Assembly (NCBI GenBank): GCA_017621705.1
Contig: JAGASR010000037.1
Span: 1-64,000 of the forward strand
Length of the DNA: 64,000 nucleotides
DNA from: Clostridia bacterium
GTDB taxonomy: Bacteria > Bacillota > Clostridia > Oscillospirales > UBA644
Reading direction: 5' to 3'
The stretch's first letter is position 1. Every line of letters begins with the position of its first letter. The notes under the pieces are model-generated. The model did not search any database. It worked only from the letters and a program-made list of their open reading frames with translations, and had not been told where the DNA came from. Position numbers and translations under genes: made by a program. Shown piece by piece: positions 10,922 to 49,407 of the stretch.

Positions 10922-13108
10922 TCAGAAAGTATTTCTTGACATAAAATCATCTTGTGCTTTTTTGCACATATCGACAAAAACCGCACTGTATCCCGTAACT
11001 CTCACCATAAGATCCCTGTACAAGGCAGGGTTTTCCTGAGCTTTGAGGAGCATCTCTTTGTCAACAGCACTAAGCTGAACCTGAAGCCCGCCTTTCTCAA
11101 AATAGACAGCCAAAATGTGAGCAAGATTTTCAAGACCGTTTGCTCCTTCAAAATTACTCGGCTGAATATTAATATTAAGAGCGCCCGATGCAAAATTATC
11201 AAACGGAATGTTTAAAAGAGACGACAGCATGGCCGTAAGACCATTCTTTGCAGAACCGACAGAAGGCTGACAGTTTTGAGCTATAGGCTCACCTCTTTTG
11301 CGTCCGTCCGGGGTTGCGCCCAATATTCGGTTATAGTCAAGATGACAGTTATCATTTTCAACACAGAAACGAAGCTTAAAAAATTCGGGAAAATCCTTAC
11401 ATGCATCGGTGTATGCTTTAATTATTGTTTCCGTAAGCGCCTTTGCCCAGAAAGATGATACTGCGTTGTCGTCTCCGAGCTTCGGTGCATTCTTACAGAG
11501 AGCGTAAATAACAGGCTCATTTTCGAATTCCTTGCCGCAGGCATCAAAAAGCTTTTCAGGCGCTATATTTTTCTCGTTTATCAGATAATCGACAGCTGAA
11601 ACAATATCAATAAGCGTTGCGATACCGCCAAATGGAACTATAAGATTTTTGTACTCAAAATACAGTCCGCCTTTTTCGGCGTTTTCATGCGCGAAACAAC
11701 AGTAGAATCGGAGGTCATTCGGATCGGGGTCGTTTCTTTTCGGTAAATTCGGGACAAACTCGGTTTTGATCCTATTGTAAAAATACGTATATATGGTTTG
11801 AAGCAATTTATCTCGGGAAAATTCACCTTTATGCGACTTCACAGCTTCAAAAAGAGCCGGTGCCATTGAGAAGTCCAATCCGTATCGGAACGCATAGTAT
11901 AACGGATAATCTTTTGCAGGAATTGTCGGCCAATTACAGCCGTAAAATTCATGAGAAAAAGCATCGTATCTGCTGACACCGTACTTTTCGTACATCCGGC
12001 ATACGCTGATATCATTGTATACTATGATCGAAGCACTGTCTCTCATTTTTGAAACAAGAGTCTTCCATATTTTCTCGTGATTCCGCGCAAAGTCTCGTGT
12101 GTATCTGAAAACTATGACCGGATTTTTATATTTGGGATTTATTTGTTCGATAAAAAGTTCTGTAAGTTCATTTGCGCAAGTTTTTTCACTGTCGGGATCA
12201 ATTCCGGAGAGGATCAGGTATTGCGGAGAGTCATAGGCCAGTATTCTACGCCAGCCCGTACAGTTCGGGGAACCTTCACGCTCAGATATCTGATGCTCTC
12301 CTCTTCCCAATATGAGATTGTTTTTCGCATAAAAATCGTCGATAATCAAAGCCGCAGTCTTGCGGTCAATCTTTCCCGATGCGACTTCCTTTTTAAAAAT
12401 ATCGAAAAGAAAAAGATCAAGCCTTCCGAGCGTTAAAGTTGGATTAGGTGTTATATAAGCACAAAATATAAATTCAATAGACCACACAAGCTGAAGCGCG
12501 CTATGAAGGGTATCCGGAGCACCGGATGCCGCCTTTCTGCACGCATTTGCCGATTCTGTAAGTCCTGCTTTTTCAGCCTCATCAGCAGATCGATTTATAA
12601 ATAAGATTATCGCATCGTATATTCTTATCATACAGCTGACAAACTCGCATTTTTCCGAATCGCCTGCCATTTGGTGTTCGATCAAACAGCTTTGGACATG
12701 ATCTCTCATAGCAGGAAGACCTTTTGTTATTATGTCTTTCCAACGAAAAGACTGATGTCCCTCGTCTGTTATGAAAGTCGGAATACCGTGAGCCGATATA
12801 TATTTGTCTATATATTTTTCTCTGAAAAGCTCTTCTTGTTCTTCCGAAAAACTTTCTTCGACCATTCGACCGATGAGAATGTCGGTTTCTTTTACAGGAA
12901 TAGAAACTCTCGAGAGAAACTTTTCTATCGCGTATGAGAACTTGAGCGGCTGTGTCGGCAGATCGTCAACCTCTTTTGCAACAGAACTCCAGAGGCGCAC
13001 GCGCTCGGATGAATAAGTTGTAACGGGTTTTTCTGTAATCGCCGAAATCGCTTCACGCTCTATACTCTTATGAAGCTCAAAAAAACTTTTTTCCGCAGAT
13101 CCTCTCAT
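10922..13108 (-). CDS. Atypical glycyl radical enzyme (GRE1, pyruvate formate-lyase superfamily)
   Basis: A full-length 728-residue GRE. The C-terminal glycyl-radical loop is clear (RVTGYSAVF, Gly706), with the preceding AVYFEKGGLQVQLSAVD strand. The thiyl Cys is Cys391 in YGCNWPTIPAKD. Aligned with eliminating GREs, which have G-C-V-E-P-x-V-P-G, the catalytic Glu position is Trp393. The enzyme therefore keeps both radical residues but lacks the usual acid/base, so diol dehydration or C-N/C-S lyase chemistry by the standard mechanism is unlikely; the substrate is unknown. It lies 102 bp after a fucosidase gene in the same direction, with no terminator between them. No activase gene is adjacent; the only one in the window is at 43.1-43.9 kb. 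Confidence 0.88.
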   Translation of the reverse strand: MRGSAEKSFFELHKSIEREAISAITEKPVTTYSSERVRLWSSVAKEVDDLPTQPLKFSYAIEKFLSRVSIPVKETDILIGRMVEESFSEEQEELFREKYIDKYISAHGIPTFITDEGHQSFRWKDIITKGLPAMRDHVQSCLIEHQMAGDSEKCEFVSCMIRIYDAIILFINRSADEAEKAGLTESANACRKAASGAPDTLHSALQLVWSIEFIFCAYITPNPTLTLGRLDLFLFDIFKKEVASGKIDRKTAALIIDDFYAKNNLILGRGEHQISEREGSPNCTGWRRILAYDSPQYLILSGIDPDSEKTCANELTELFIEQINPKYKNPVIVFRYTRDFARNHEKIWKTLVSKMRDSASIIVYNDISVCRMYEKYGVSRYDAFSHEFYGCNWPTIPAKDYPLYYAFRYGLDFSMAPALFEAVKSHKGEFSRDKLLQTIYTYFYNRIKTEFVPNLPKRNDPDPNDLRFYCCFAHENAEKGGLYFEYKNLIVPFGGIATLIDIVSAVDYLINEKNIAPEKLFDACGKEFENEPVIYALCKNAPKLGDDNAVSSFWAKALTETIIKAYTDACKDFPEFFKLRFCVENDNCHLDYNRILGATPDGRKRGEPIAQNCQPSVGSAKNGLTAMLSSLLNIPFDNFASGALNINIQPSNFEGANGLENLAHILAVYFEKGGLQVQLSAVDKEMLLKAQENPALYRDLMVRVTGYSAVFVDMCKKAQDDFMSRNTF

Positions 13109-13210: not shown

Positions 13211-14584
13211 TTACTCAACAACGTTAACACCCTCGGTTTTCACATTTACGGGCTCTTCTGTTTTTATGGAAAGGATGATATCCGTAAAATCAGATTCGGG
13301 AACGGTAACGATGAGGTTGTTATCGGTTATTTCTGTTTTTACGTTTTCGCCCGTGAGACATTCGATAGATTTAACAACAATGTCTTCAAGAGGCAGAATG
13401 ACTTTGCCGCTTTCTGGACGGGAGACGATATGGACATAAATATTATCATCTTTATAGACACTGCCGCCGAAGACAGACGGATTCCACGGGCCGCTTCTTG
13501 TTCCGTAAACGGTATGACCGTATTTTTTCAGCCAGTCGCCGAGATTAAGCATACTTTCGGTTTCTTCGGGTGCGATCTTGCCGTTCGGCATACAGCCGAT
13601 ACTGAGAAGATAGTTTCCGTCGCCGCAGACTGCATGGATAAACTGATCGAGAACAACCTTGAAAGGTTTGATTCCGTTGCCTGCCCATGCCCATTCGTTG
13701 CCGAGAGGCATGCATGTTTCCCATGCACGGTTACGCTGAACAAATCCGATACGACCTTCGGGGGTATCAAAGTCGCCCGGGAGCGATGCTCTGTTATTGA
13801 TAATAATATCGGGCTGTTTTGCTCTGACTTTTTCTTCGATCGTTTTTGAATCCCACATATCGGCTTTATACATGCCGCCCCACCATGCGCTGTCCCACCA
13901 AAGAATATCGATCTTGCCGTATTTTTCCATAAGTTCAAGCACGGAATTATGCATGTATTCAATATATTTATGATGATTTTTACCTGCGTGGCTGGGCTTA
14001 CCGTCTTTTGTAGTATAACAAAGAGTATCGGGAATCTGCACAGAATCATTCACATCTACGGGCTCGTAATCGGGATGAGTCCAGTCTCTCTGCGAATAGT
14101 AAAGACCGACGGGCATATTTTTACGGTGGCACGCATCGATAAGTTCTCCGAGATAATCGCGCGCCATGGGCGAATTTGTTATTTTATAATCGGAATATGC
14201 GGTATCCCACATATTAAAGCCGTCGTGATGTTTTGTTATGATAACAACATATTTGAAGCCACCGGCAATCGCAAGATCGATCCATTCATCGGCGCTGAAA
14301 TCTTCCATCTTGATCTCTTTTGCCCAGCCGTCATAGATTTCATCGGCGATAGGTCCGACACCGGGGTCGGGAAGCTTATGAGTATGCCTCGACCAGCCGA
14401 TATCTACTTTCCCGAGCGCGGAAATACCGACATGAAAGAAAAGACCGAGCTTTGCATCTCGGAACCATTTGAGTTTTTCTTCACCTGCGAACGGGTATTC
14501 TGCCCATTCTTTCTCGGTGAAAGGCTGGAACAAAATAGAGGGTTTATATTCTTGACCGTCTTTTACAAGCATTGACCAGCACAT
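13211..14584 (-). CDS. Alpha-L-fucosidase, GH29
   Basis: A 457-residue GH29 enzyme: WFRDAKLGLFFHVG (residues 40-53), YVVIITKHHDGFNMWD (HH at 119-120) and the nucleophile region IDILWWDSAWWGG with Asp231. A C-terminal beta-sandwich follows the catalytic barrel. It should release terminal alpha-L-fucose, or a related deoxyhexose, from glycans. There is no signal peptide, so it acts on imported oligosaccharides. The start is fixed by AAGGAG 6 bp upstream. It sits between the beta-helix protein (26-bp gap) and GRE1; a second, shorter GH29 is at 19.96-20.94 kb. Confidence 0.92.
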   Translation of the reverse strand: MCWSMLVKDGQEYKPSILFQPFTEKEWAEYPFAGEEKLKWFRDAKLGLFFHVGISALGKVDIGWSRHTHKLPDPGVGPIADEIYDGWAKEIKMEDFSADEWIDLAIAGGFKYVVIITKHHDGFNMWDTAYSDYKITNSPMARDYLGELIDACHRKNMPVGLYYSQRDWTHPDYEPVDVNDSVQIPDTLCYTTKDGKPSHAGKNHHKYIEYMHNSVLELMEKYGKIDILWWDSAWWGGMYKADMWDSKTIEEKVRAKQPDIIINNRASLPGDFDTPEGRIGFVQRNRAWETCMPLGNEWAWAGNGIKPFKVVLDQFIHAVCGDGNYLLSIGCMPNGKIAPEETESMLNLGDWLKKYGHTVYGTRSGPWNPSVFGGSVYKDDNIYVHIVSRPESGKVILPLEDIVVKSIECLTGENVKTEITDNNLIVTVPESDFTDIILSIKTEEPVNVKTEGVNVVE

Positions 14585-39129: not shown

Positions 39130-40824
39130 CTATTCAGCAAAGAGAGAGATGAGAGAAAAACTGTCAACATCGAAAAGGCCGAAAGTTGTAAGTTTGATAT
39201 GAGGGATAACGGGAAGGCTTACAAACGACATATTCATAAACGGCTCAACATCTTCGGGACAACCGAGACTGTGAGCGGCTTTGCGGATATCCTCATTTTG
39301 CTTTGCGCAAACAAAAGCAGTTTCGTCGCTCATAAGACCCGCGATCGGCAACGGCATTTCGCAAAGCACTTTACCGTTATCGACTGCGACAAGTCCGCCC
39401 CCTATTTCTTTTATACGTTCGGAGGCAACGAGCATATCGTGTTCGTTCGTTCCGATAACGATAAGATTATGAGAGTCGTGAGAAACAGATGAAGCGATCG
39501 AACCCGATCTGAGGCCTGCACCGTTGATAAAGCCGAGACCGATATGACCCGTATTTTTATGACGTTCAATTACGGCGATCTTGAGAATATCTTTCGAAAT
39601 ATCAATACCGTTATTTACTGAAAAATCTATATCGCAGATGAGTTTTTCGGTAAGTATCTGTCCTTTGAGGATCCTGATAACATTGCACTTTTTCTTTTGA
39701 CTGCAATCAATAAGAAAATCTTTTTCGGTAAGAGTTCTGAAATTGAACGAACCGCGGACTTTCATTTCGAGTTCGGGATCAACAGTCGGAGCAGTAATTT
39801 TGCAAGCGGAACCGTTTTCGACAACACGCTTTCCGTTTTTATAGACATCCGATATCTTCATACTGCAAAGATCGTCAAGGATCAAAATATCTGCCGTATA
39901 ACCCGGAGCAACAGCACCGAGATCGTCAAGTTTAAAATGCTGAGCGGCATTGATCGTTGCCATTTTAATTGCGGAAACAACGGATTTACCCTCAGAGACT
40001 GCGATACGTATCGCATCGTCGATATGACCTTTTGAAAGAAGATCGGCAGGATGCTTATCGTCGGAAACCAAAAGACAGCGATCAGCCCACGGTTTTTCGA
40101 AAAGCGGAAGAAGATCACGAAGATTTTTTGCCGCCGTCCCCTGACGAATCATTACTTTCTGACCTTTGCGAATACGTTCTTTTGCTTCTTCGGTAGATGA
40201 ACATTCATGATCGTCACGAATTGAGGCGGAAACGTATTTATCGAGATCTTTACCCGAAAGAAGAGGCGCATGACCGTTTATTACGGCACCGTGCTTCTTT
40301 GCGGACTCGATCTTTTTAAGCATAGCGTCATTTCCGAAAAGGACTGCCGGGTAGTCCATAACTTCTCCGAGCCCCACTACCCTTTTATCCGAATAGAACG
40401 GTTCGAGATCTTCAGCCGCAAGGATCGCACCCGATTCATCAAAAGAAGTGGACGGAACGCATGACGGCAAAACGATATAAACCGTAAGAGGAAGATCTCG
40501 GCTTGATTGGAGCATATAACGAAGACCGTCAGTTCCGCAGACATTTGCGATTTCATGCGGATCGGCAATTACGGCAGTTGTACCGTGAGGCACTGCGACA
40601 CGTGCAAACTCAACGGGCGAAAGCATCGTGCTTTCGATATGGATATGGCTGTCGATAAAACCGGGACAGACATATTTACCTGATATATCAACGGTTTCGT
40701 CTGCAATTTCATCGGAATAGTCCCCTACCCCGATTATTTTACCGTCTTCGATAAGAACATCGCAACGTTCTATCTCTTCGGAAAAGACATTGACGACCGA
40801 ACCGTTTTTAAGCAATATTTTCAT
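39130..40824 (-). CDS. adeC: Adenine deaminase
   Basis: A 564-residue amidohydrolase of the AdeC/Ade type, converting adenine to hypoxanthine in purine salvage. It shows the metal motif PGFIDSHIHIESTM (HxH near residue 60), the PHGTTAVIADPHEIANV block and the C-terminal adenine-deaminase domain (GGGLVAVDNGKVLCEMPLPIAGLMSDE). Length is normal. It starts 23 bp after the GRE2 stop with no terminator between them, so it appears to be the last gene of that operon, although it has no evident link to sugar chemistry. No purine riboswitch is present. Confidence 0.95.
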   Translation of the reverse strand: MKILLKNGSVVNVFSEEIERCDVLIEDGKIIGVGDYSDEIADETVDISGKYVCPGFIDSHIHIESTMLSPVEFARVAVPHGTTAVIADPHEIANVCGTDGLRYMLQSSRDLPLTVYIVLPSCVPSTSFDESGAILAAEDLEPFYSDKRVVGLGEVMDYPAVLFGNDAMLKKIESAKKHGAVINGHAPLLSGKDLDKYVSASIRDDHECSSTEEAKERIRKGQKVMIRQGTAAKNLRDLLPLFEKPWADRCLLVSDDKHPADLLSKGHIDDAIRIAVSEGKSVVSAIKMATINAAQHFKLDDLGAVAPGYTADILILDDLCSMKISDVYKNGKRVVENGSACKITAPTVDPELEMKVRGSFNFRTLTEKDFLIDCSQKKKCNVIRILKGQILTEKLICDIDFSVNNGIDISKDILKIAVIERHKNTGHIGLGFINGAGLRSGSIASSVSHDSHNLIVIGTNEHDMLVASERIKEIGGGLVAVDNGKVLCEMPLPIAGLMSDETAFVCAKQNEDIRKAAHSLGCPEDVEPFMNMSFVSLPVIPHIKLTTFGLFDVDSFSLISLFAE

Positions 40825-40847
40825 AGATAGCTACCTATTATAATGTG

Positions 40848-43040
40848 TTATTCAAATCTTGAGATCATTTCATCCTGAAGTTCTTTCGGAAGATCAACGA
40901 AATGAGCAGATACGCCCCAAAGACGTACTATAAGATCTTTATATTTTTCGGGATGGAGCTGTGCCTGTTTGAGTTCTTCAACATCCAGGACATTCGGCTG
41001 ATGTTGCATACCGCCCCGGCTGAAATAACCGTTAAGAAGAGTTTTGAAAGTTTCCTTTCCGTTATTGCCTTTGAAGACCGAAGCAAAATAATTTATCATG
41101 ACACAATAATTCCACTGAATAAGCATGGAGTCGATCTTAGAGGCAGAGGAAAGGGCGGCAGTCGGGCCGTTTTTCATTGTACCGCTTGCAGGAGTTAAAG
41201 TTACTGCAACGGCTTCACCTTTTGATCTTCCGTCGGGAGTTGCCATAAGACCGCCGCCTGTCGGAACGGGATGGGGCTGATGGATACCGCCGAGAACCTG
41301 ACCTCCGGCATAAGTTTTATATTTACGACATTCTTTAAGACAAAATTCAAGAATATCTTTTGCTATATCATCAACATAGCTGTCATCATTACCCCATTTC
41401 GGGCAATTAAAGAGGACGTTCTTGATGATCTTTCCGTTTTCGCCCTCGAAGTTTGATTCGCAAGCAGCAAAGACTTCATCAAGAGTATAACGCTTATCTT
41501 CAAAAACAGTTTTCTTAATTGCGGCAAGAGAGTTTATAGTTTCGGTAGCGGTACCGAATAACATACCTTTTTCTTTTATGGGATACGGTTCGAGCGTAAC
41601 ATCAAGAGCATTTTCAATACAACCGTGATACAGACCGCTCAGATACGGAAGCGGAGCCATGGGGCTGTTACCGCCGCGGTTAACGGGCTTGTTATGATTT
41701 TTTACACCGTCAAAATATTCATCAAGTTTACCCGATGCATAAAGTAAGATCTGTTCCTGCGCATTGTTAAAATTGTCAACATCCCTTTTGATTTGTTCTG
41801 AGATCCTTACTTTCAATTCGGCGATAAGCTCGTCAAAGGTTTTAAAGGAACGATCGTTTTTCAGTATATTAAGCAACATCCCAATTAAGCCAGGACCGCC
41901 TACGATCCAAAAATCGCCGTAACCCGGGATATTTATATCCTGGCAAAGATCGAATCCGTAGCAACGGGCATATTCAAGAGGAACACCTGCTCTATGAAGG
42001 CTTTCGACGAAAAGATCGTCATTATAATAAGAAACGAAGTTGCAGCCGGAGATAGTAAGTTCTGCGGCTTTGTCAATAAATTCGGGAGGATTTTTACTGT
42101 TAACACGCAGATTAAATTCAGGTTCGGGAAGACGTACTTTATCAATAGCCTCAAGGAACATCATTGTGACATCGTTAACAGCATTTTCGCCGTTTGAAAG
42201 AACACCGCCGAGAGTTACAACGAGCTGCGCGGCATATTTTCCGAGATATGAATTATTTATGTCTACCTGATCGTACATTTTTAGAAGCAAGCATTCGATA
42301 AGCTGTTGCGCTTCGTTTTTCGGAGTATTACCGAGGAATTCACCGAGGATAACGTCAAGTCTGCCGTAGTTTACAAACTCAAAGCTTTCGATAATAGTAC
42401 CGAGATGTGCAAACCAAAGGAGCTGAACGGCTTCATGGAAAGTTTCTGCAGGTTCGCCGCTTATTTTTTTGCAAATACGAGCGATCTCCAAAAGCTCTGT
42501 TTTATCTGTTCCTTCTGCTGTCTCAGAAAGAAGAAGAGCTTCATCAGCATAACGGAGAATGAGATTTTTAAGACCGCTGTAAGCAATAATAACGCTTGAC
42601 AGAAAATCAAGATTTACTGAATGAAGAGACGGATCTTTTTTCTTTTCTTCGGCGCTGTTGATTATTCCGTCAATACCTTTTTTGAGAATAATACCGAGAT
42701 CGGGGGTTATATGGGTCTTATTTGTAAACTGTTGGTTGCAACCGAAAAGCTCGATATCTTTTTCGTTTATGTATTCATAACCGCCCCAAAGACCGTAATC
42801 AAAGATATCGTGACCATCTTCGTTACCTTTGTTCGGATTAAAGAACGTTCTCGTACCGACGATGAGTTCTTTCGGTCCGATATAAACGGGCATGGTATCG
42901 AATATTTTCTTTAAACCAAGAGCTTTTCTTTCAGCAATACTCGGAGCATCGTTCGCAACCGATATTTTGGGTATAGGTGTACGTCGGCACTTGTTAGCGC
43001 CGGAAAGAGTCTGTTCTTTTAAAAATTCCGTTCTTGTCAT
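40848..43040 (-). CDS. Glycyl radical enzyme (GRE2) of a kinase/aldolase/alcohol dehydrogenase operon
   Basis: A 730-residue GRE. The radical loop is RLWGVSAHF (Gly709), where most GREs have R-V-x-G-Y-S-A-x-F. The thiyl residue is Cys366 in YGFDLCQDINIPG; aligned with the C-V-E-P-x-V-P-G of eliminating GREs, it keeps an acid as Asp368 but with a changed frame of residues. It should abstract hydrogen from a polyol, sugar or anhydrosugar (probably phosphorylated, given the kinase) and eliminate a hydroxyl or ether oxygen (inference). Its activase is directly upstream, followed upstream by an iron alcohol dehydrogenase, FGGY kinase and DeoC-like aldolase in one transcript. It does not match any characterised GRE closely enough for me to name. 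Confidence 0.88.
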   Translation of the reverse strand: MTRTEFLKEQTLSGANKCRRTPIPKISVANDAPSIAERKALGLKKIFDTMPVYIGPKELIVGTRTFFNPNKGNEDGHDIFDYGLWGGYEYINEKDIELFGCNQQFTNKTHITPDLGIILKKGIDGIINSAEEKKKDPSLHSVNLDFLSSVIIAYSGLKNLILRYADEALLLSETAEGTDKTELLEIARICKKISGEPAETFHEAVQLLWFAHLGTIIESFEFVNYGRLDVILGEFLGNTPKNEAQQLIECLLLKMYDQVDINNSYLGKYAAQLVVTLGGVLSNGENAVNDVTMMFLEAIDKVRLPEPEFNLRVNSKNPPEFIDKAAELTISGCNFVSYYNDDLFVESLHRAGVPLEYARCYGFDLCQDINIPGYGDFWIVGGPGLIGMLLNILKNDRSFKTFDELIAELKVRISEQIKRDVDNFNNAQEQILLYASGKLDEYFDGVKNHNKPVNRGGNSPMAPLPYLSGLYHGCIENALDVTLEPYPIKEKGMLFGTATETINSLAAIKKTVFEDKRYTLDEVFAACESNFEGENGKIIKNVLFNCPKWGNDDSYVDDIAKDILEFCLKECRKYKTYAGGQVLGGIHQPHPVPTGGGLMATPDGRSKGEAVAVTLTPASGTMKNGPTAALSSASKIDSMLIQWNYCVMINYFASVFKGNNGKETFKTLLNGYFSRGGMQHQPNVLDVEELKQAQLHPEKYKDLIVRLWGVSAHFVDLPKELQDEMISRFE

Positions 43041-43064
43041 AGCTTTTGATCCCTTTCAAATAGA

Positions 43065-43892
43065 TTAAGCCAATGTAATATTTCTTTTTATAAATATTTT
43101 ACGGAAAGAATCCATTTCTTCTTCCGTTATTTTTTTATTAGTATCGTACGGATATTCCAATCCGAGAGTTTTATACTTACTTGCGCCGAGTGTGTGATAC
43201 GGCATCAATGTGACTTGCTCAACAGTCTTTAGCGATGCAGCAAGTTCAGCTATCGCCGTCATTTCATCTTCGTTATTGTTGAAGTCCGGAATAACGGGAA
43301 CACGAATCCAAATAGATTTACCTGCTTCGGAAAGACGTTTGATATTATCTATTATTAACATATTATCCACGCCTGTATATTCTTTATGAACAGACGGAGT
43401 AAAACATTTAATATCATAAAGATAAAGCTCACAGCAATCAAGAGTTTTTTCAAATGATGCCCAAGGAACATAACCGGAAGTGTCGATTGCGGTATGAAGC
43501 CCCATTGCTTTGGCTCTTGTTAAAACAGAAGCCACAAAATCAGCCTGAAGCATACACTCCCCACCCGAAAAAGTAACACCGCCGTTGTTTCCGTAGAAAT
43601 CACGGTCTTTTAAGAGCTCACGGATAAGCTCATCTTCGTCAATCTCGCGACCGCACTTTACAAGAGCCTCTGCAGGACATTTTTCAGCATCGGAAATATT
43701 AGCTCTATTTCCGCATGAGCCGCAACCAATACACTTTTCATCAAAAAACTGCAGTTGAATACCTGCATTCAGTCCCTCGGGGTTATGGCACCATTTACAG
43801 CGGAGCGGACAACCTTTCATAAAAACGGTCGTTCTGATCCCGGGACCGTCATGCACGGAAAAACGCTGAATATCAAAAATCAAGCCGTTCAA
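43065..43892 (-). CDS. Glycyl radical enzyme activating enzyme (radical SAM)
   Basis: The 275-residue protein uses S-adenosylmethionine and a [4Fe-4S] cluster to place the glycyl radical on GRE2. The radical SAM motif is GCPLRCKWCHNP (Cys28, Cys32, Cys35). A ferredoxin-like insert carries a single additional Cys cluster, C-x2-C-x2-C-x11-C (Cys54, 57, 60, 72), and the GG-SAM motif is VTFSGGECMLQ. PFL activase lacks such an insert, and many eliminase activases have two clusters. It is the only activase in the window, so it might also serve GRE1. It lies 24 bp from GRE2. Confidence 0.92.
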   Translation of the reverse strand: MNGLIFDIQRFSVHDGPGIRTTVFMKGCPLRCKWCHNPEGLNAGIQLQFFDEKCIGCGSCGNRANISDAEKCPAEALVKCGREIDEDELIRELLKDRDFYGNNGGVTFSGGECMLQADFVASVLTRAKAMGLHTAIDTSGYVPWASFEKTLDCCELYLYDIKCFTPSVHKEYTGVDNMLIIDNIKRLSEAGKSIWIRVPVIPDFNNNEDEMTAIAELAASLKTVEQVTLMPYHTLGASKYKTLGLEYPYDTNKKITEEEMDSFRKIFIKRNITLA

Positions 43893-43903
43893 AAAATCAT
43901 CTC

Positions 43904-45094
43904 CTAAAGAGCAAGCTTATAGATAGCGTAAGCCTCATCACGAATAATGGGAGGAATGCTTGCGAGAGTTCCGTCAGAGGAGAACGATACCTCGACAACG
44001 CCATTCGTAAGTTCTTCGAGGCTTGCTTCGGTGCAACCAAACTGAGAAATTCTTGTTTCGACACCTGCAGCTTTGATATATTCCTCAAAAATATCTGCGG
44101 CTTTTAGAAGATCGTCCGTACCCCACATAGCCTTTGCAAATGCAACGAAACGCTCGTTCTGTTTACGGGTCGCAAAATATCTCATCCATGCAAGCATCAT
44201 AGTCGCAAGAGTTGCACCGTGAGTAGCTTTATAATGAGAAGAAAGGACGTGACCCATCTGATGCATGGGAGTCCAACCCTGAACACCGCAAGTGAGCCAA
44301 CCGTTAAGCGCAACAGTCGCAGAGAACTGCATTACGGAGCGAAGCTCGATATTGTTGGGATCGGCGAGAACTTTGGGAAGATTATCGTATATCGTTTTGA
44401 CAACGCCAAGCTGCATATTGGATTGAAGATCAATGTTACCGTAAGTCGCTTCATCGCTGAAAAAAAACGGTTCAACAGCGTGGCTGATAGAGTCGATAGC
44501 ACCCGAAGCCGTCTGATAAGCAGGAAGAGTAAGGGTAAGGGACGGGTCAAGGATAGAAACCTTAGGATAAAGGCACGCCGGTTCCCATACGTAGCTCTTG
44601 CGAAGCGTTTCATCGTCAGTAATAACAGCTGTGGGATTCATTTCGCTCGCAGTAGCAGGAAGGGTCGGAATCATTATCATGGGAAGAGCTTCCGTGGGAG
44701 CGATCTGTACATCGGAAGAATGGCTGAACTTGATCATTTTTCTTATATCATGAGGGTACTTGACGCCTGCAGCGATTATCTTTGTAAGGTCCATAACACT
44801 GCCGCCGCCTACGCCGATAAGCATATCCGCGCCAACAGCTTTTGCCTTTTCAACGCCGGCTATAGCTTCGGTTATTTTTGGGTTTGCGGTCGCACCGAAG
44901 AATGTATGACTTTCGATACCCTCAGCGGAAAGGAATCCTGCTATTTTTTCAAAGAGATCTCCGTAGAAATCAACATTTGAATACGACACAATAAGCGCGC
45001 ATGTTCCGATACCTTTGGCGTAAACACCTATTTTTTCGGATTCACCGTTACCGAAAACCAGTTTAACGGGATTATAAAACTCAAAATTATTCAT
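43904..45094 (-). CDS. Iron-containing alcohol dehydrogenase
   Basis: The 396-residue protein is a group III Fe-ADH of the BdhA-like type: NAD(P)-binding loop GVGGGSVMDLTKI, a TLPATASEMNPTAVI block, and metal ligands in GAIDSISHAVEP and MHQMGHVLSSHYKATHG. It should reduce an aldehyde or ketone with NAD(P)H. In this operon the likely substrate is the small carbonyl released by the aldolase, for example acetaldehyde or hydroxyacetone, regenerating NAD+. The start at 45094 has GAGGAG upstream; the longer frame begins inside the kinase gene without a ribosome site. Confidence 0.9.
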   Translation of the reverse strand: MNNFEFYNPVKLVFGNGESEKIGVYAKGIGTCALIVSYSNVDFYGDLFEKIAGFLSAEGIESHTFFGATANPKITEAIAGVEKAKAVGADMLIGVGGGSVMDLTKIIAAGVKYPHDIRKMIKFSHSSDVQIAPTEALPMIMIPTLPATASEMNPTAVITDDETLRKSYVWEPACLYPKVSILDPSLTLTLPAYQTASGAIDSISHAVEPFFFSDEATYGNIDLQSNMQLGVVKTIYDNLPKVLADPNNIELRSVMQFSATVALNGWLTCGVQGWTPMHQMGHVLSSHYKATHGATLATMMLAWMRYFATRKQNERFVAFAKAMWGTDDLLKAADIFEEYIKAAGVETRISQFGCTEASLEELTNGVVEVSFSSDGTLASIPPIIRDEAYAIYKLAL

Positions 45095-45107
45095 AATAAG
45101 CATCTCC

Positions 45108-46637
45108 TCATATATTTTTAAGAAGGTCACCCACATCTGAGCTTATATCGAGCAATTTTCTGAAAGATGGGATAAGAGAGTTGTAAAAAGATGAAAGTTC
45201 TTCAGAAGGGACCGTCAGTTTTTCATCATTGACAATAGATTTGATCTTCTCGAAATCGGTCCAGACACCTGCGCCGACAGCGGCAACAGCAGCAGCACCG
45301 AAGCTTCCTGCATCCTGACCGACGCGCGCTGTGGCGATATTCATTTCATAGACATCGGCAAAGATCTGTCTCCAAAGAGGACTTTTCGAGCCGCCGCCGA
45401 CAATGAGCATATTTTCACCGACAGTAACGTACTTTTTTAGAACATCGAGGGCGACACGAAGATTTAACGCTATCCCTTCGAGTGTGGCTCTTGCGATATC
45501 GGAGCGAGTGTGCATCAAGTCAAGACCGAAATAACAACCTTTGGCATCGGCGCTCTTATCAAGAGAGCTTCCGCCTGCAAGCGTGGGAATAAAAAACACC
45601 TTATTTGAGCCTGCAGGAGAATTTTCTGCAAGACTGTCAATCTCTTTATAGCTTGGTGCGCCGCCGGCGAGCTCTGCCGAGTAAAAATCGGCGAAGAATT
45701 TATCTCGAACCCATCGCAGACTGTTACCTGCGGAAAAAATAGCGACAGCGGAAACATATTTATCAGGTAAACAATGGGCGAAGACATATGGTCGGTTTTC
45801 AGTATCCACTACGGGTACACGGTCGCAAACGGCAATCCACGCGGAGGTACCGAGACTTGTATAAACATCGCCGTCATCCGTACAACCTGCGCCGAGAGCC
45901 ATGCACGCATTGTCAACACCGCCGGCACAAACGAGAGTTTCGCCCGACAGCCCCAATTCCTCGGCGACTTCAGGAAGAATATTGCCGACAATATCGGTAC
46001 TGTTTAAAATATCCGGCAATTTATTTCTATCTATGCCGCTGATATCAATATATTTTTCGTTATATCGATTATCTTTCAGGGAGAACACACCGCAACCAGA
46101 CGCATAGCTTCTGTCCGTTGCGAGTACACCCGTCATTTTATAATTTATGTAGTCTTTTGTGCCGATAAATTTATCGGTATTTTCATAGACCTCGGGCATG
46201 TTGTCTTTATACCAAAGGATCTTAAAAAGGCTGTACAGTTCAGGCGGAAAACCATTGCCTGTCGAGAGATACCACTCGTCTTCCGATGTTTTTTCAAAGA
46301 AAGCTTCTGCCTGAGCTTTTGCTCTTGAGTCATTCCATATAGGAACATATTCGCAAAGCAGTTGACCGTTATAACCTATGGGCAGAGCTCCGAGGCTGTG
46401 TCCCGAAACAGCAAGAGAAACGATTTGATTCGGATCGATCCCCGTTTCGAGAAGAACAGTAGAGGTCGTTGTCTTAACAGCCTCCCACCAAGTATCGGGA
46501 CGTTGTTCTCTGAAACCTTCTTTCGGAAAGCTTGTATCATATGGGAGAAAACTGAAGCCTTTGGAGATACCGTCTTCTCCGAAAATGCTTGTTTTTATAC
46601 CACCCGTACCAAGGTCGTATGCTATTACGTATTTCAT
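45108..46637 (-). CDS. FGGY-family carbohydrate kinase
   Basis: A 509-residue sugar or polyol kinase with the FGGY/actin-like fold. The N-terminal phosphate loop is AYDLGTGGIKTSIF, the catalytic base motif is GGVDNACMALGAG, and the nucleotide-binding region is VGGGSKSPLWRQIFADV. By motif it is nearest to xylulokinase-like members, but family members also act on ribulose, fuculose, erythritol and pentitols, so the substrate is open. Three bases separate it from the aldolase gene and 13 from the dehydrogenase, so it is surely co-transcribed. Confidence 0.9.
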   Translation of the reverse strand: MKYVIAYDLGTGGIKTSIFGEDGISKGFSFLPYDTSFPKEGFREQRPDTWWEAVKTTTSTVLLETGIDPNQIVSLAVSGHSLGALPIGYNGQLLCEYVPIWNDSRAKAQAEAFFEKTSEDEWYLSTGNGFPPELYSLFKILWYKDNMPEVYENTDKFIGTKDYINYKMTGVLATDRSYASGCGVFSLKDNRYNEKYIDISGIDRNKLPDILNSTDIVGNILPEVAEELGLSGETLVCAGGVDNACMALGAGCTDDGDVYTSLGTSAWIAVCDRVPVVDTENRPYVFAHCLPDKYVSAVAIFSAGNSLRWVRDKFFADFYSAELAGGAPSYKEIDSLAENSPAGSNKVFFIPTLAGGSSLDKSADAKGCYFGLDLMHTRSDIARATLEGIALNLRVALDVLKKYVTVGENMLIVGGGSKSPLWRQIFADVYEMNIATARVGQDAGSFGAAAVAAVGAGVWTDFEKIKSIVNDEKLTVPSEELSSFYNSLIPSFRKLLDISSDVGDLLKNI

Positions 46638-46640
46638 GGT

Positions 46641-47339
46641 CTATACCTCAAAATCCCATTCTTTGCCGTATTTTACATACGCCTCTTTCATAATTGAGAT
46701 GGCACTATTAGTACCTATACCGAAACGCGAAGCACCTGCATCGACCATTTCAAGGAGAGTGTCGAGCGTTCTTACACCGCCTGCGGCTTTAATTTTAGCG
46801 GAATCTCCTATTTCGGACTTGATTATCTTTATTGTTTCGACAGTGGTGGGCTTTGATGCCCAGCCTGTACCGGTTTTAACGTACGTAACACCTGCGCGAA
46901 CAGCGAGTTCGGAACCGCGTCTGATCTCATCATCCGTAAGATGCGCGATCTCAAGGATACATTTAACGGGCATACCGTTCGCTGTCTGAACAACGGAATG
47001 GATATCGTTATATACCTCATCGTAAAGACCGCTTTTGAGTGCGCCTACATTGATGACCATGTCGAGTTCGTCAACGCCTGCTGCCATCATTTCTTTTGCG
47101 ATTGCAACCTTTACAGAAGTCGTATCTGTTCCAGACGGAAAACCGACAACGCCGCCGACTAAAATATCATTTTCGGTAGAAAGCATATCTACGAGCCTTT
47201 TTGTAAAACTCGGCATTGCAAAAGAACAGATAAATCGGAAATGTTTAGCGACTTCCACCATACGCGTTATCTCGGTGACCGTAGACTCCGCTTTGACAGA
47301 ACTGATATCTATCATTCTTGCTATAGAACTAACATCCAT
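46641..47339 (-). CDS. DeoC-family class I aldolase (deoxyribose-phosphate aldolase type)
   Basis: A 232-residue TIM-barrel aldolase. The Schiff-base Lys is Lys155 in YVKTGTGW, the proton-relay Lys is Lys184 in IKAAGGVRT and Asp93 is in ELDMVINVGA. The usual N-terminal D-H-T-L-L-K-P is D-I-S-S-V-K-A, a modest change next to the active site. The known reaction is 2-deoxyribose 5-phosphate to acetaldehyde and glyceraldehyde 3-phosphate; here it would split the deoxy-sugar phosphate made by GRE2 (inference). The start at 47339 has GGAG 8 bp upstream. It follows glgB after 14 bp. No nucleoside phosphorylase or phosphopentomutase, the usual deoC partners, is nearby. Confidence 0.88.
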   Translation of the reverse strand: MDVSSIARMIDISSVKAESTVTEITRMVEVAKHFRFICSFAMPSFTKRLVDMLSTENDILVGGVVGFPSGTDTTSVKVAIAKEMMAAGVDELDMVINVGALKSGLYDEVYNDIHSVVQTANGMPVKCILEIAHLTDDEIRRGSELAVRAGVTYVKTGTGWASKPTTVETIKIIKSEIGDSAKIKAAGGVRTLDTLLEMVDAGASRFGIGTNSAISIMKEAYVKYGKEWDFEV

Positions 47340-47353
47340 TTTTTTAACTCCAT

Positions 47354-49363
47354 TCATTTACTTTTTTTTCGCGGTGTCGTAACTTTCTTCAGACATACAG
47401 CAGTTCTGGACGGAAGATATATCTGCAATTTTGCGTTGTTATCGGGATGAACGCTTGAAGTATAAACATAATCTTCGGAAACCCTGTCAAAACCGCCGTA
47501 ATTTTCTCTGTCGGTAGAAAATACGACCTGATATTTACCTTTGGTGGGGACTGTCAGCCAGTAATCTTCAAAAGACTTATTGGGATTGAAGTTAAGTGCA
47601 AAAACGTAACCTGCGCATTCATACATAAGGATCTGACAGTTCTGATCGATAAAGAGAGCTTTTGCGGGAGAAGAGAGGATCTTGTTTTCTGTAATGAATT
47701 TAACCATCTCTTTATTGAATGTCTGGAGATATTTATAGCGAAGTGTCGTATCTTCAACAAGGTGCCACTGGCGGCGACAATAGAAATGACTCCAACCATT
47801 GCCTTCGCGCGGAAAATCGATCCACTCGGGATGGCCGAATTCGTTGCCCATAAAATTGAGATAACCTTCGCCGCCGAGAGTCATGGTTGCAAGAGTGATC
47901 ATTTTATGGAGCGCGATACCGCGGTCGATATCTGCATCGTGTCTGAAAACAGACATATCGGTATACATCTTGCTGTCGCAAAGACGGAAGATAATGGTCT
48001 TATCACCGACGAGAGCCTGGTCGTGAGACTCGGAATAGCCGATATATTTTTCATGAGGACGTCTGCTTGTAAGTTCACCCCAGATGCGCCACATATCCCA
48101 GTTTTCATCTGGACAGTCTTTCAGAAGTTTGATCCAGAGATCGGGCTGTCCCATTGCGAGACGGTAGTCAAAACCTATACCGCCGTCTTTTATGGGTACG
48201 CACATACCGGGCATCGCGGACATATCCTCGGCAACAGTTATTGCCTTGGGATTGACCTGACGGATAAGCTCATTTGCAAGCTGAAGGTAGGTTATGGATT
48301 CGGTATCCGTATTAAGAGAGAAATATTTGCTGTAATCGGTAAACGCAACCCCGAGACCGTGATCATGATAGATCATGGATGTTACGCCGTCAAAACGAAA
48401 ACCGTCAAAATGGAATTCCGTCATCCAGAATTTGAGGTTGGATAAAAGGAAGTGAAGGACTTCGTTTTTGTTATAATTGAAAAGTTTCGTTCCCCATGCG
48501 GGATGCTCGCCCTTCGGTCCGTCATGGAAGAACTGATAAGTTGTTCCGTCAAACTCGTTGATGCCCTCGGCTGTATTTTTGACGGCATGAGAGTGAACAA
48601 CGTCGAGAAGAACATTTATACCCATACCGTGAGCGGCATCGATAAGTTCTTTAAGCTCGTTGGGAGTGCCGAAACGGGAAGAAGCGGCATAGAAAGAAGA
48701 AACTTGATAGCCGAACGAACCGTAATACGGATGCTCCATTATAGCCATGATCTGAATGGTATTGTAACCGAGATCTTTTATGCGCGGCAGGATATTTTCA
48801 CGGAATTCGGAATAAGTTCCGACCGCTTCTTTTTCCTGCGCCATACCGATATGACATTCATAAATGCAGATATCTTTTTTCTTCGGAACGAAATCGTTGT
48901 TTTTCCATTCGTATGCAGGTTCATCAACTATGCATCCGCACCATTTATGTGTCTGCTTATCCTGAACGACACGGCGAATATAAAGGGGAATACGTTCAAA
49001 GAAACGGCCCGAGTTATTTACTATTGTTTTGACGAGACAGCCATCGTAAAGTCTGTCAGTACCCGGCAAAAAGATCTCAAAGACACCGTTGCCGATATTA
49101 GTAAGCTGAAGATCGAACCAATGCCAGTCGACCATATCGCCCGTAAGATATACTTCATCTGCGGCAGGCGCCCATTCTCGGTAATACCAGCCGTCATTGG
49201 TTTTATGAAAACCGAAATACTCATGAGCGTTTGCGAAATCAATAAGCTTTCCGGAAGTACCGACAAGCTCCTTTTTCTTGCGCTTATAATTATTCATACG
49301 AAGGTTGATATCATTCTCAAAATTCAACAGAATGGGATCGTATTCAAAAATTTTATACGCCAT
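47354..49363 (-). CDS. glgB: 1,4-alpha-glucan branching enzyme, GH13
   Basis: The 669-residue branching enzyme introduces alpha-1,6 branches into glycogen-like glucan. It has an N-terminal CBM48-like domain (YREWAPAADEVYLTGDMVDW) and the GH13 regions DVVHSHAV, DGFRFDGVTSM (nucleophile Asp), TVAEDMSAMPG (acid/base Glu) and GYSESHDQALVG. The compact N-terminus and motifs resemble the eukaryote-like GH13_8 branching enzymes found in some gut Firmicutes rather than the usual bacterial GlgB. Start set by GAGGA 6 bp upstream. It sits inside the operon that continues to the aldolase, kinase and GRE genes. Confidence 0.92.
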   Translation of the reverse strand: MAYKIFEYDPILLNFENDINLRMNNYKRKKKELVGTSGKLIDFANAHEYFGFHKTNDGWYYREWAPAADEVYLTGDMVDWHWFDLQLTNIGNGVFEIFLPGTDRLYDGCLVKTIVNNSGRFFERIPLYIRRVVQDKQTHKWCGCIVDEPAYEWKNNDFVPKKKDICIYECHIGMAQEKEAVGTYSEFRENILPRIKDLGYNTIQIMAIMEHPYYGSFGYQVSSFYAASSRFGTPNELKELIDAAHGMGINVLLDVVHSHAVKNTAEGINEFDGTTYQFFHDGPKGEHPAWGTKLFNYNKNEVLHFLLSNLKFWMTEFHFDGFRFDGVTSMIYHDHGLGVAFTDYSKYFSLNTDTESITYLQLANELIRQVNPKAITVAEDMSAMPGMCVPIKDGGIGFDYRLAMGQPDLWIKLLKDCPDENWDMWRIWGELTSRRPHEKYIGYSESHDQALVGDKTIIFRLCDSKMYTDMSVFRHDADIDRGIALHKMITLATMTLGGEGYLNFMGNEFGHPEWIDFPREGNGWSHFYCRRQWHLVEDTTLRYKYLQTFNKEMVKFITENKILSSPAKALFIDQNCQILMYECAGYVFALNFNPNKSFEDYWLTVPTKGKYQVVFSTDRENYGGFDRVSEDYVYTSSVHPDNNAKLQIYLPSRTAVCLKKVTTPRKKSK

Positions 49364-49407
49364 AAATATTCCTCTTTTCATATAATAATAAAGATTTAGT
49401 TAACTTA

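Follow-up and report, generated by a model that had tools for sequence, protein, structure and literature searches.

A conserved five-gene operon of gut Clostridia with a glycyl radical enzyme of an uncharacterised subfamily and a possible role in C5 polyol fermentation

The window analysed here, a 64,000-nucleotide stretch of contig JAGASR010000037.1 (assembly GCA_017621705.1), comes from an uncultured gut Clostridia bacterium and carries on its minus strand five genes in the order DeoC-type aldolase, FGGY kinase, iron-containing alcohol dehydrogenase (Fe-ADH), activase, and glycyl radical enzyme (GRE), the latter named GRE2. As a GRE-based catabolic operon, it is new both in its GRE subfamily and in the partners that accompany the GRE. 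The five genes possibly form one catabolic operon for the anaerobic fermentation of a C5 polyol or a closely related sugar, and this tentative reading is the one followed below. GREs, which are oxygen-sensitive, account for many of the demanding reactions of the anaerobic gut, and for numerous clusters in the superfamily no substrate has been assigned. A GRE subfamily with an unusual active-site Asp, placed in a conserved operon with a kinase, an aldolase, and a reductase, narrows the substrate search to a few C5 polyols, sugars, and phosphates. If the reading is true, it adds a way of fermenting sugar alcohols to the repertoire of gut Clostridia, together with a new specificity for the aldolase.

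The five-gene operon and its conservation

The operon consists of the following genes:
46641..47339, minus strand: DeoC-type class I aldolase of a divergent subfamily, referred to as DeoC-W (TIGR00126, 194.9 bits)
45108..46637, minus strand: FGGY carbohydrate kinase, XylB-like but of a distinct subfamily (PF00370/PF02782)
43904..45094, minus strand: Fe-ADH, BdhA/YqhD-like (PF00465)
43065..43892, minus strand: glycyl radical enzyme activase, radical SAM, CxxxCxxC (TIGR02494)
40848..43040, minus strand: GRE2, glycyl radical enzyme of an uncharacterised subfamily (PF02901, PF01228)

The intergenic gaps are 3, 13, 11, and 24 bp in the order of transcription, with the starts of Fe-ADH and DeoC-W taken at Met15 and Met7, respectively. 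The reading frame of Fe-ADH opens at 45136, and Met15 is its likely start. That of DeoC-W extends to 47357; its start was set at 47339 (Met7), the boundary also given by a first-pass annotation of the window, because this matches the N-terminus of the relative in genome G252. The annotation had described five genes packed in one direction with gaps of 3 to 24 bp and had labeled the families FGGY, Fe-ADH, DeoC, and GRE; the packing is confirmed, and the labels agree with family searches.

Among 345 genomes sampled from the same order, 16 carry a GRE2 relative; these genomes belong to several families, and the relatives are mostly 57 to 73% identical to GRE2, with one at 41%. The same five genes in the same order are found in G346, a single-contig genome of another family, with identities to the window of 59% (DeoC), 49/41% (FGGY), 50% (Fe-ADH), 51% (activase), and 59% (GRE2). 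The locus of G346 reads GntR/UTRA, insertion sequences, DeoC, FGGY, Fe-ADH, activase, and GRE2. G252, from a third family, has the set divided between two contigs, one with GntR, FGGY, DeoC, and Fe-ADH and the other with activase–GRE2. Two genomes of the genus of G346 have parts of the set: G134 retains activase–GRE2 alone, and G097 retains GntR, a DeoC remnant, an intact FGGY gene, and the C-terminal half of GRE2. The flanks of these two loci are 93 to 98% identical, and the loci are read as complementary deletions of one ancestral operon. The kinase of G097 adjoins the truncated GRE2; its interpretation as a replacement of GRE2 was rejected on comparison with G134 and G346. In addition, G067 carries decayed DeoC and FGGY genes. 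Co-occurrence confined to the window genome had been named beforehand as grounds for refutation, and this is not the case: the set is found as the same order in G346, as all parts in G252, and as remnants in G097 and G067. The five-gene neighborhood is not a chance arrangement, as the same genes recur in the same order in G346, a genome of a different family.

Close relatives of the kinase occur in 4 of the 345 genomes of the order, and all 4 are among the 16 GRE2-positive ones. When the window genome and its sister G006 are set aside, both remaining kinase genomes are GRE2-positive (2/2, p ~0.0016). Fe-ADH relatives occur in 5 of the 345, 3 of these together with the kinase. Class-wide, the kinase occurs in 7 of 287 sampled genomes, and another draw of 279 genomes contains GRE2 in 2, the window genome and G493, both with the kinase.

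Some of these genomes show further features. In G346 (L098 11367–14847), several apparent transposase genes lie between the GntR regulator and DeoC, with three near-identical 408/362-aa copies around. In G252 (L090 5926–8945), a short-chain dehydrogenase/reductase (SDR) followed by another GRE is convergent to the FGGY–DeoC–Fe-ADH cassette; this extra GRE has a GCNE loop and is 24% identical to GRE2, and with GRE2 as query the genome yields eight GREs at E <= 1e-35. GntR–DeoC-W pairs without kinase or GRE2 are present in G240 and G027 (L092, L093), near a zinc alcohol dehydrogenase that resembles secondary alcohol dehydrogenases.

Features of GRE2 and its partner enzymes

GRE2 belongs to the glycyl radical enzyme superfamily, with domain scores of 353 bits for PF02901 and 73 bits for PF01228. 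It features the C-terminal glycyl motif, with Gly709 in RLWGVSAHF, and the thiyl Cys loop, with Cys366 in FDLCQD, and both residues are invariant in 13 relatives. The invariant GRE2 motifs are HQPHPV, QHQPN, and WGVSA. The dedicated radical-SAM activase of the superfamily is present as well (TIGR02494, 318 bits, cut-off 174.35; motif CPLRCKWC); where no contig end interrupts the locus, it lies next to GRE2 in most relatives. Sequence identity to the solved GREs compared is at most 30%, and it is 28.8% to E. coli PflD and 26.8% to YbiW; for the structure-solved characterised GREs, this falls short of the ~60% needed in similarity networks to separate distinct GRE activities (PMC6453916, PMC6386719). 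GRE2 also remains below the cut-off of every characterised-GRE NCBIfam model matched, the models tested being HypD, CutC, sulfopropanediol dehydratase, PflD-type, indoleacetate and 4-hydroxyphenylacetate decarboxylases, and PFL; the best equivalog, HypD, yields 281 of 1100 bits. As judged by sequence, GRE2 belongs to none of the characterised GRE families tested.

In glycerol and propanediol dehydratases, a catalytic C-x-E together with H164, H281, and D447 has active-site roles (H164, H281, D447, and E435 are numbered as in C. butyricum glycerol dehydratase). The dehydratase loop GCVE is LCQD in all GRE2 relatives, including a 40% relative (G338) and a 45–47% relative (G493), and the Asp of this C-Q-D occupies the place of the usual catalytic Glu (Glu435 of glycerol dehydratase). 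H164 is kept as H110; H281 is aligned to Glu and D447 to Val, both positions being variable among relatives. GRE2 hence deviates from the glycyl radical glycerol/propanediol dehydratases in C-x-E, H281, and D447. The Glu of the loop has been described as required for deprotonating the substrate hydroxyl (PMC6453916). In fold comparisons, the predicted structure of GRE2 matches glycerol and propanediol dehydratases best (Z 37.8 and 36.9), with several other GREs within 1 to 2 Z units of these best matches; the model, whose glycyl end is of low confidence, was used for fold neighbors only.

DeoC-W passes the deoxyribose-phosphate aldolase (DERA) model TIGR00126 with its 194.9 bits at a cut-off of 117.3. 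The equivalents of the Schiff-base Lys, the second Lys, and the Asp (Lys167, Lys201, Asp102) are kept in the alignment, and the characteristic motifs are DIS[SC]V, FA[ML]P, KTGTGW, and RFGIG. In E. coli numbering, the pocket features F47, W172, and G238, whereas true DERA has Cys47, a Lys172-type residue, and Ser238/Ser239. By motifs and pocket, DeoC-W is a divergent DeoC subfamily. Engineered variants of E. coli DERA, such as N21K/C47F and N21K/S238G, act only weakly on deoxyribose 5-phosphate (PMC7671976). The main phosphate contacts of DERA are backbone amides (PMC7671976); therefore, phosphate binding by DeoC-W would still be possible.

The FGGY kinase reaches 325.3 bits on the XylB model TIGR01312, below the cut-off of 380.25. 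Its sugar-site motif SGHSLG is common to the module members aligned and differs from TGQMHS in the XylB of G493. Judging by score and motif, the kinase is XylB-like but of a distinct subfamily. The best solved relative of the Fe-ADH is the NADH-dependent butanol dehydrogenase 1vlj, followed by 7w9x and YqhD, and the protein carries candidate metal-ligand Asp/His residues.

Substrate hints and neighboring genes

The complete genomes G420 and G493 of another order contain the same kinase and aldolase subfamilies together with a sugar-type ABC importer and an SDR. The SDR of G420 belongs to the GolD/DthD polyol-dehydrogenase family (343.7 bits, cut-off 286); in G603, an SDR gene is followed by DeoC-W and FGGY, and the GntR is divergent. 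The GRE2 relative of G493 stands in line with an XylF-like binding protein (373.6 bits, cut-off 389.6), an ABC ATPase, a permease, an XylB xylulokinase (477 bits at a cut-off of 380), and an activase of its own—about 35 kb from the DeoC-W/FGGY cluster of that genome. Thus, two different FGGY kinases accompany the GRE2 family, both in pentose- or polyol-type surroundings. The polyol dehydrogenase of G420 and the importer and XylB of G493 are independent hints, drawn from gene content, of a C5 polyol or pentose.

Glycoside hydrolases (GH) also occur near GRE2: GH29 in G009, G134, G097, and G346; GH78 in G012 and G252; and GH106 in L057. The same alpha-L-fucosidase family repeatedly adjoins GRE2 loci (L038, L048, L060, L098, and others), as do GH28 or the rhamnosidases GH78/GH106 in other genomes; these genomes are glycan-degrading, and the adjacency may not exceed their background. 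A PfkB kinase beside GRE2 in L061 was rejected as a replacement kinase, being closest to KDG-kinase models.

The operon is flanked by two genes:
39130..40824, minus strand: adenine deaminase, downstream neighbor of GRE2 (TIGR01178, 635.7 bits, cut-off 472.5)
47354..49381, minus strand: GH13 GlgB-like protein, upstream of the operon (GlgB models below cut-off)

The span 39130–47339 takes in the adenine deaminase, which the first-pass account left out. In the neighbor comparison, the gene is seen beside GRE2 only in the genus of the window; it lies directly 3' of GRE2 in four genomes of this genus, two of them without the aldolase–kinase–ADH cassette. Because of this confinement, it was rejected as a pathway member and probably stands outside the pathway. 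The GlgB-like protein, whose gene ends 14 bp upstream of DeoC, reaches 295.3 of the 577 bits needed on the best GlgB model. The gene adjoins activase–GRE2 in G008 and G013, two cassette-free genomes of the same genus that keep GlgB, activase, GRE2, adenine deaminase, and transporter genes and miss aldolase, kinase, and ADH. A glycogen or alpha-glucan link via glgB was rejected, since the adjacency is found only in this genus and survives where the cassette is absent, and the GlgB-like protein probably lies outside the pathway, too. In agreement with the first-pass annotation, the operon contains no nucleoside-salvage genes beside the aldolase; a search of the entire draft genome (96% complete) did not detect the phosphopentomutase DeoB either, and nucleoside salvage was rejected as a role. 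PF00936 shell proteins gave no match in the same draft genome, and a microcompartment link was rejected likewise. A second unusual GRE, GRE1, is encoded at 10922–13108 of the window (minus strand). It is 25% identical to GRE2, has a GCNWP thiyl loop with neither Glu nor Asp at the +2 position, and adjoins an alpha-L-fucosidase family gene (13211–14584), with no activase seen nearby.

Possible route, alternatives, and known systems

In the proposed route, the FGGY kinase would phosphorylate a pentitol or a related C5 substrate, and the activase would install the glycyl radical on GRE2. The latter would eliminate one hydroxyl as water; with a pentitol phosphate as the starting compound, the resulting deoxy carbonyl would most likely be a deoxypentose phosphate. 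Its cleavage by DeoC-W would give a triose phosphate plus a small carbonyl, for instance acetaldehyde, and reduction of the latter by the Fe-ADH, for example to ethanol, would offset the NADH from triose oxidation. By stoichiometric arithmetic, the conversion of a pentitol into ethanol, pyruvate, and water is redox-neutral; loss of water turns a pentitol into a deoxypentose, whose conversion to ethanol and pyruvate is redox-balanced overall, so that a polyol dehydrogenase would not be required. The C–O lyase role of GRE2, the action of the kinase ahead of it, the C5 nature of the substrate, the stereochemistry, and the end products are all inferred. A bolder form of the route appears doubtful: GRE2 as the first member of a new GRE class that uses an Asp base (C-Q-D) to dehydrate pentitols, pentuloses, or their phosphates, and that forms, with a new DeoC-type aldolase specificity, a redox-neutral sugar-alcohol fermentation in gut Clostridia without cobalamin or polyol dehydrogenase.

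Several observations weigh against the C5 route, the main doubts being the altered aldolase pocket and the genomes with GRE2 only. Because of F47, G238, and W172, the natural substrate of DeoC-W may differ from deoxyribose 5-phosphate. Dehydration by GRE2 is uncertain, because Asp replaces Glu and two ligands of glycerol dehydratase are lost. GRE2, mostly with activase, is present without close kinase relatives in G008, G009, G012, G013, G134, G039, G313, G161, and others; as several relatives keep it without kinase, aldolase, and ADH, GRE2 has a use beyond the cassette. Conversely, G504 and G603 have kinase and aldolase without GRE2, the kinase gene of G346 is broken by a frameshift or stop, and a dedicated importer in a GRE2 operon was seen only in G493. 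From the first-pass annotation, which had proposed an undescribed GRE fermentation operon, the conserved operon and the position of GRE2 outside the characterised families tested are supported, and the idea is strengthened by the conservation in other genomes. GRE2 is not tied to the cassette alone. An aldolase facing the natural DeoC substrate type, as the annotation had it, is not supported, as DeoC-W is a divergent subfamily with changed specificity positions (PMC7671976). It is plausible that the pathway serves a C5 polyol or sugar.

Alternatively, GRE2 and its activase could work on their own, converting a glycan-derived compound and perhaps serving as an electron sink, with DeoC-W, FGGY, and Fe-ADH as a separate deoxy-sugar or polyol module placed in the same operon for co-regulation. 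Activase–GRE2 without the cassette in many genomes, often beside GH29, GH78, or GH106 glycosidases, fits this division, as does the DeoC-W–FGGY pair of G504 and G603. The same five-gene order in two families, the confinement of close FGGY relatives in the order to GRE2-positive genomes, and the GRE2 relative of G493 with its own kinase and importer speak against the division, which is rather unlikely. Ordinary deoxyribose fermentation, with FGGY as deoxyribose kinase, DeoC as DERA, ethanol formation by Fe-ADH, and GRE2 as incidental, is improbable: known deoxyribokinases belong to the PfkB family and not to FGGY, the pocket of DeoC-W is changed, the genome has no detected DeoB, and the linkage to GRE2 and activase is conserved. 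In its favor are the DeoC score above the DERA family cut-off, the adenine deaminase next door in the window's genus, and the arithmetic, by which the cassette alone is a redox-balanced deoxyribose fermentation.

A route similar to anhydroglycolysis would start with an anhydrosugar phosphate formed by the kinase, which GRE2 would open to a 1-deoxyketose phosphate; DeoC-W, in place of Fsa, would release hydroxyacetone and glyceraldehyde 3-phosphate, and the Fe-ADH would reduce the hydroxyacetone. The functional order of roles would match that of 1,5-anhydroglucitol use in E. coli (PMC12441222), and the donor pocket of DeoC-W is altered relative to true DERA. Yet PflD and YbiW, at 28.8 and 26.8% identity to GRE2, both retain C-x-E, neither Fsa nor PTS (phosphotransferase system) was seen in the operon or in the cassette-carrying relatives examined, and the operon of G493 has a pentose-type importer and XylB. 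Wild-type DERA is not known to take hydroxyacetone as a donor, and we give this route little credence; the earlier suggestion of anhydrosugars related to alpha-glucan is weak, given the low identity of GRE2 to YbiW and PflD, an operon in which neither Fsa nor PTS was seen, and the genus-only adjacency of glgB. It is very unlikely that GRE2 serves as a propanediol or glycerol dehydratase in the breakdown of fucose or rhamnose, in which FGGY would phosphorylate a deoxyhexulose and the Fe-ADH would reduce propanal or lactaldehyde. These dehydratases are the closest solved relatives of GRE2, and alpha-L-fucosidase and alpha-L-rhamnosidase neighbors occur in other genomes; set against this are the non-conserved H281 and D447, the Asp at E435, an operon without FucA- or RhaD-type aldolase, and the lack of a detectable microcompartment shell protein in the genome.

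The operon can be compared with four known systems. The literature on GREs acting on pentitol, ribitol, deoxyribose, and anhydroglucitol gave no account of it, which is weak evidence of absence, as subscription journals lay mostly outside the search. The yjjI–yjjW locus of E. coli is one in which genes for a GRE-type protein and its activase neighbor that of a deoxyribose-phosphate aldolase: in E. coli K-12 (L101 516–3103), yjjI and yjjW lie divergently beside deoC, a second GRE–DeoC neighborhood. YjjI was rejected as a relative of GRE2 for want of significant BLAST similarity, and E. coli has the deo nucleoside genes, whereas DeoB was not found in the window genome. Glycerol dehydratase (1r8w) and the propanediol dehydratases (5i2a, 9rco) are among the best sequence and structure matches of GRE2 and share its fold, thiyl Cys, glycyl loop, and H164 equivalent. 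GRE2 differs from them by an identity of at most 30%, by Asp for Glu435, by loss of the H281 and D447 equivalents, and by its own motifs HQPHPV, QHQPN, and WGVSA.

E. coli anhydroglycolysis (YbiW or PflD, PTS, Fsa; PMC12441222) likewise joins a phosphorylation step to a GRE and its activase, a class I aldolase, and an enzyme that reduces the carbonyl. In contrast, the operon described here has an FGGY kinase instead of the PTS, a DeoC-type aldolase instead of Fsa, a BdhA/YqhD-type Fe-ADH, and a GRE of 27 to 29% identity. With dehydrogenase–kinase pentitol catabolism (arabitol routes, PMC6685057), the operon has in common a kinase acting on a C5 compound, and in G420 a polyol dehydrogenase of the GolD/DthD family stands beside a kinase of the same subfamily. 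The window instead has a GRE where these routes have the polyol dehydrogenase, plus a DeoC-type aldolase.

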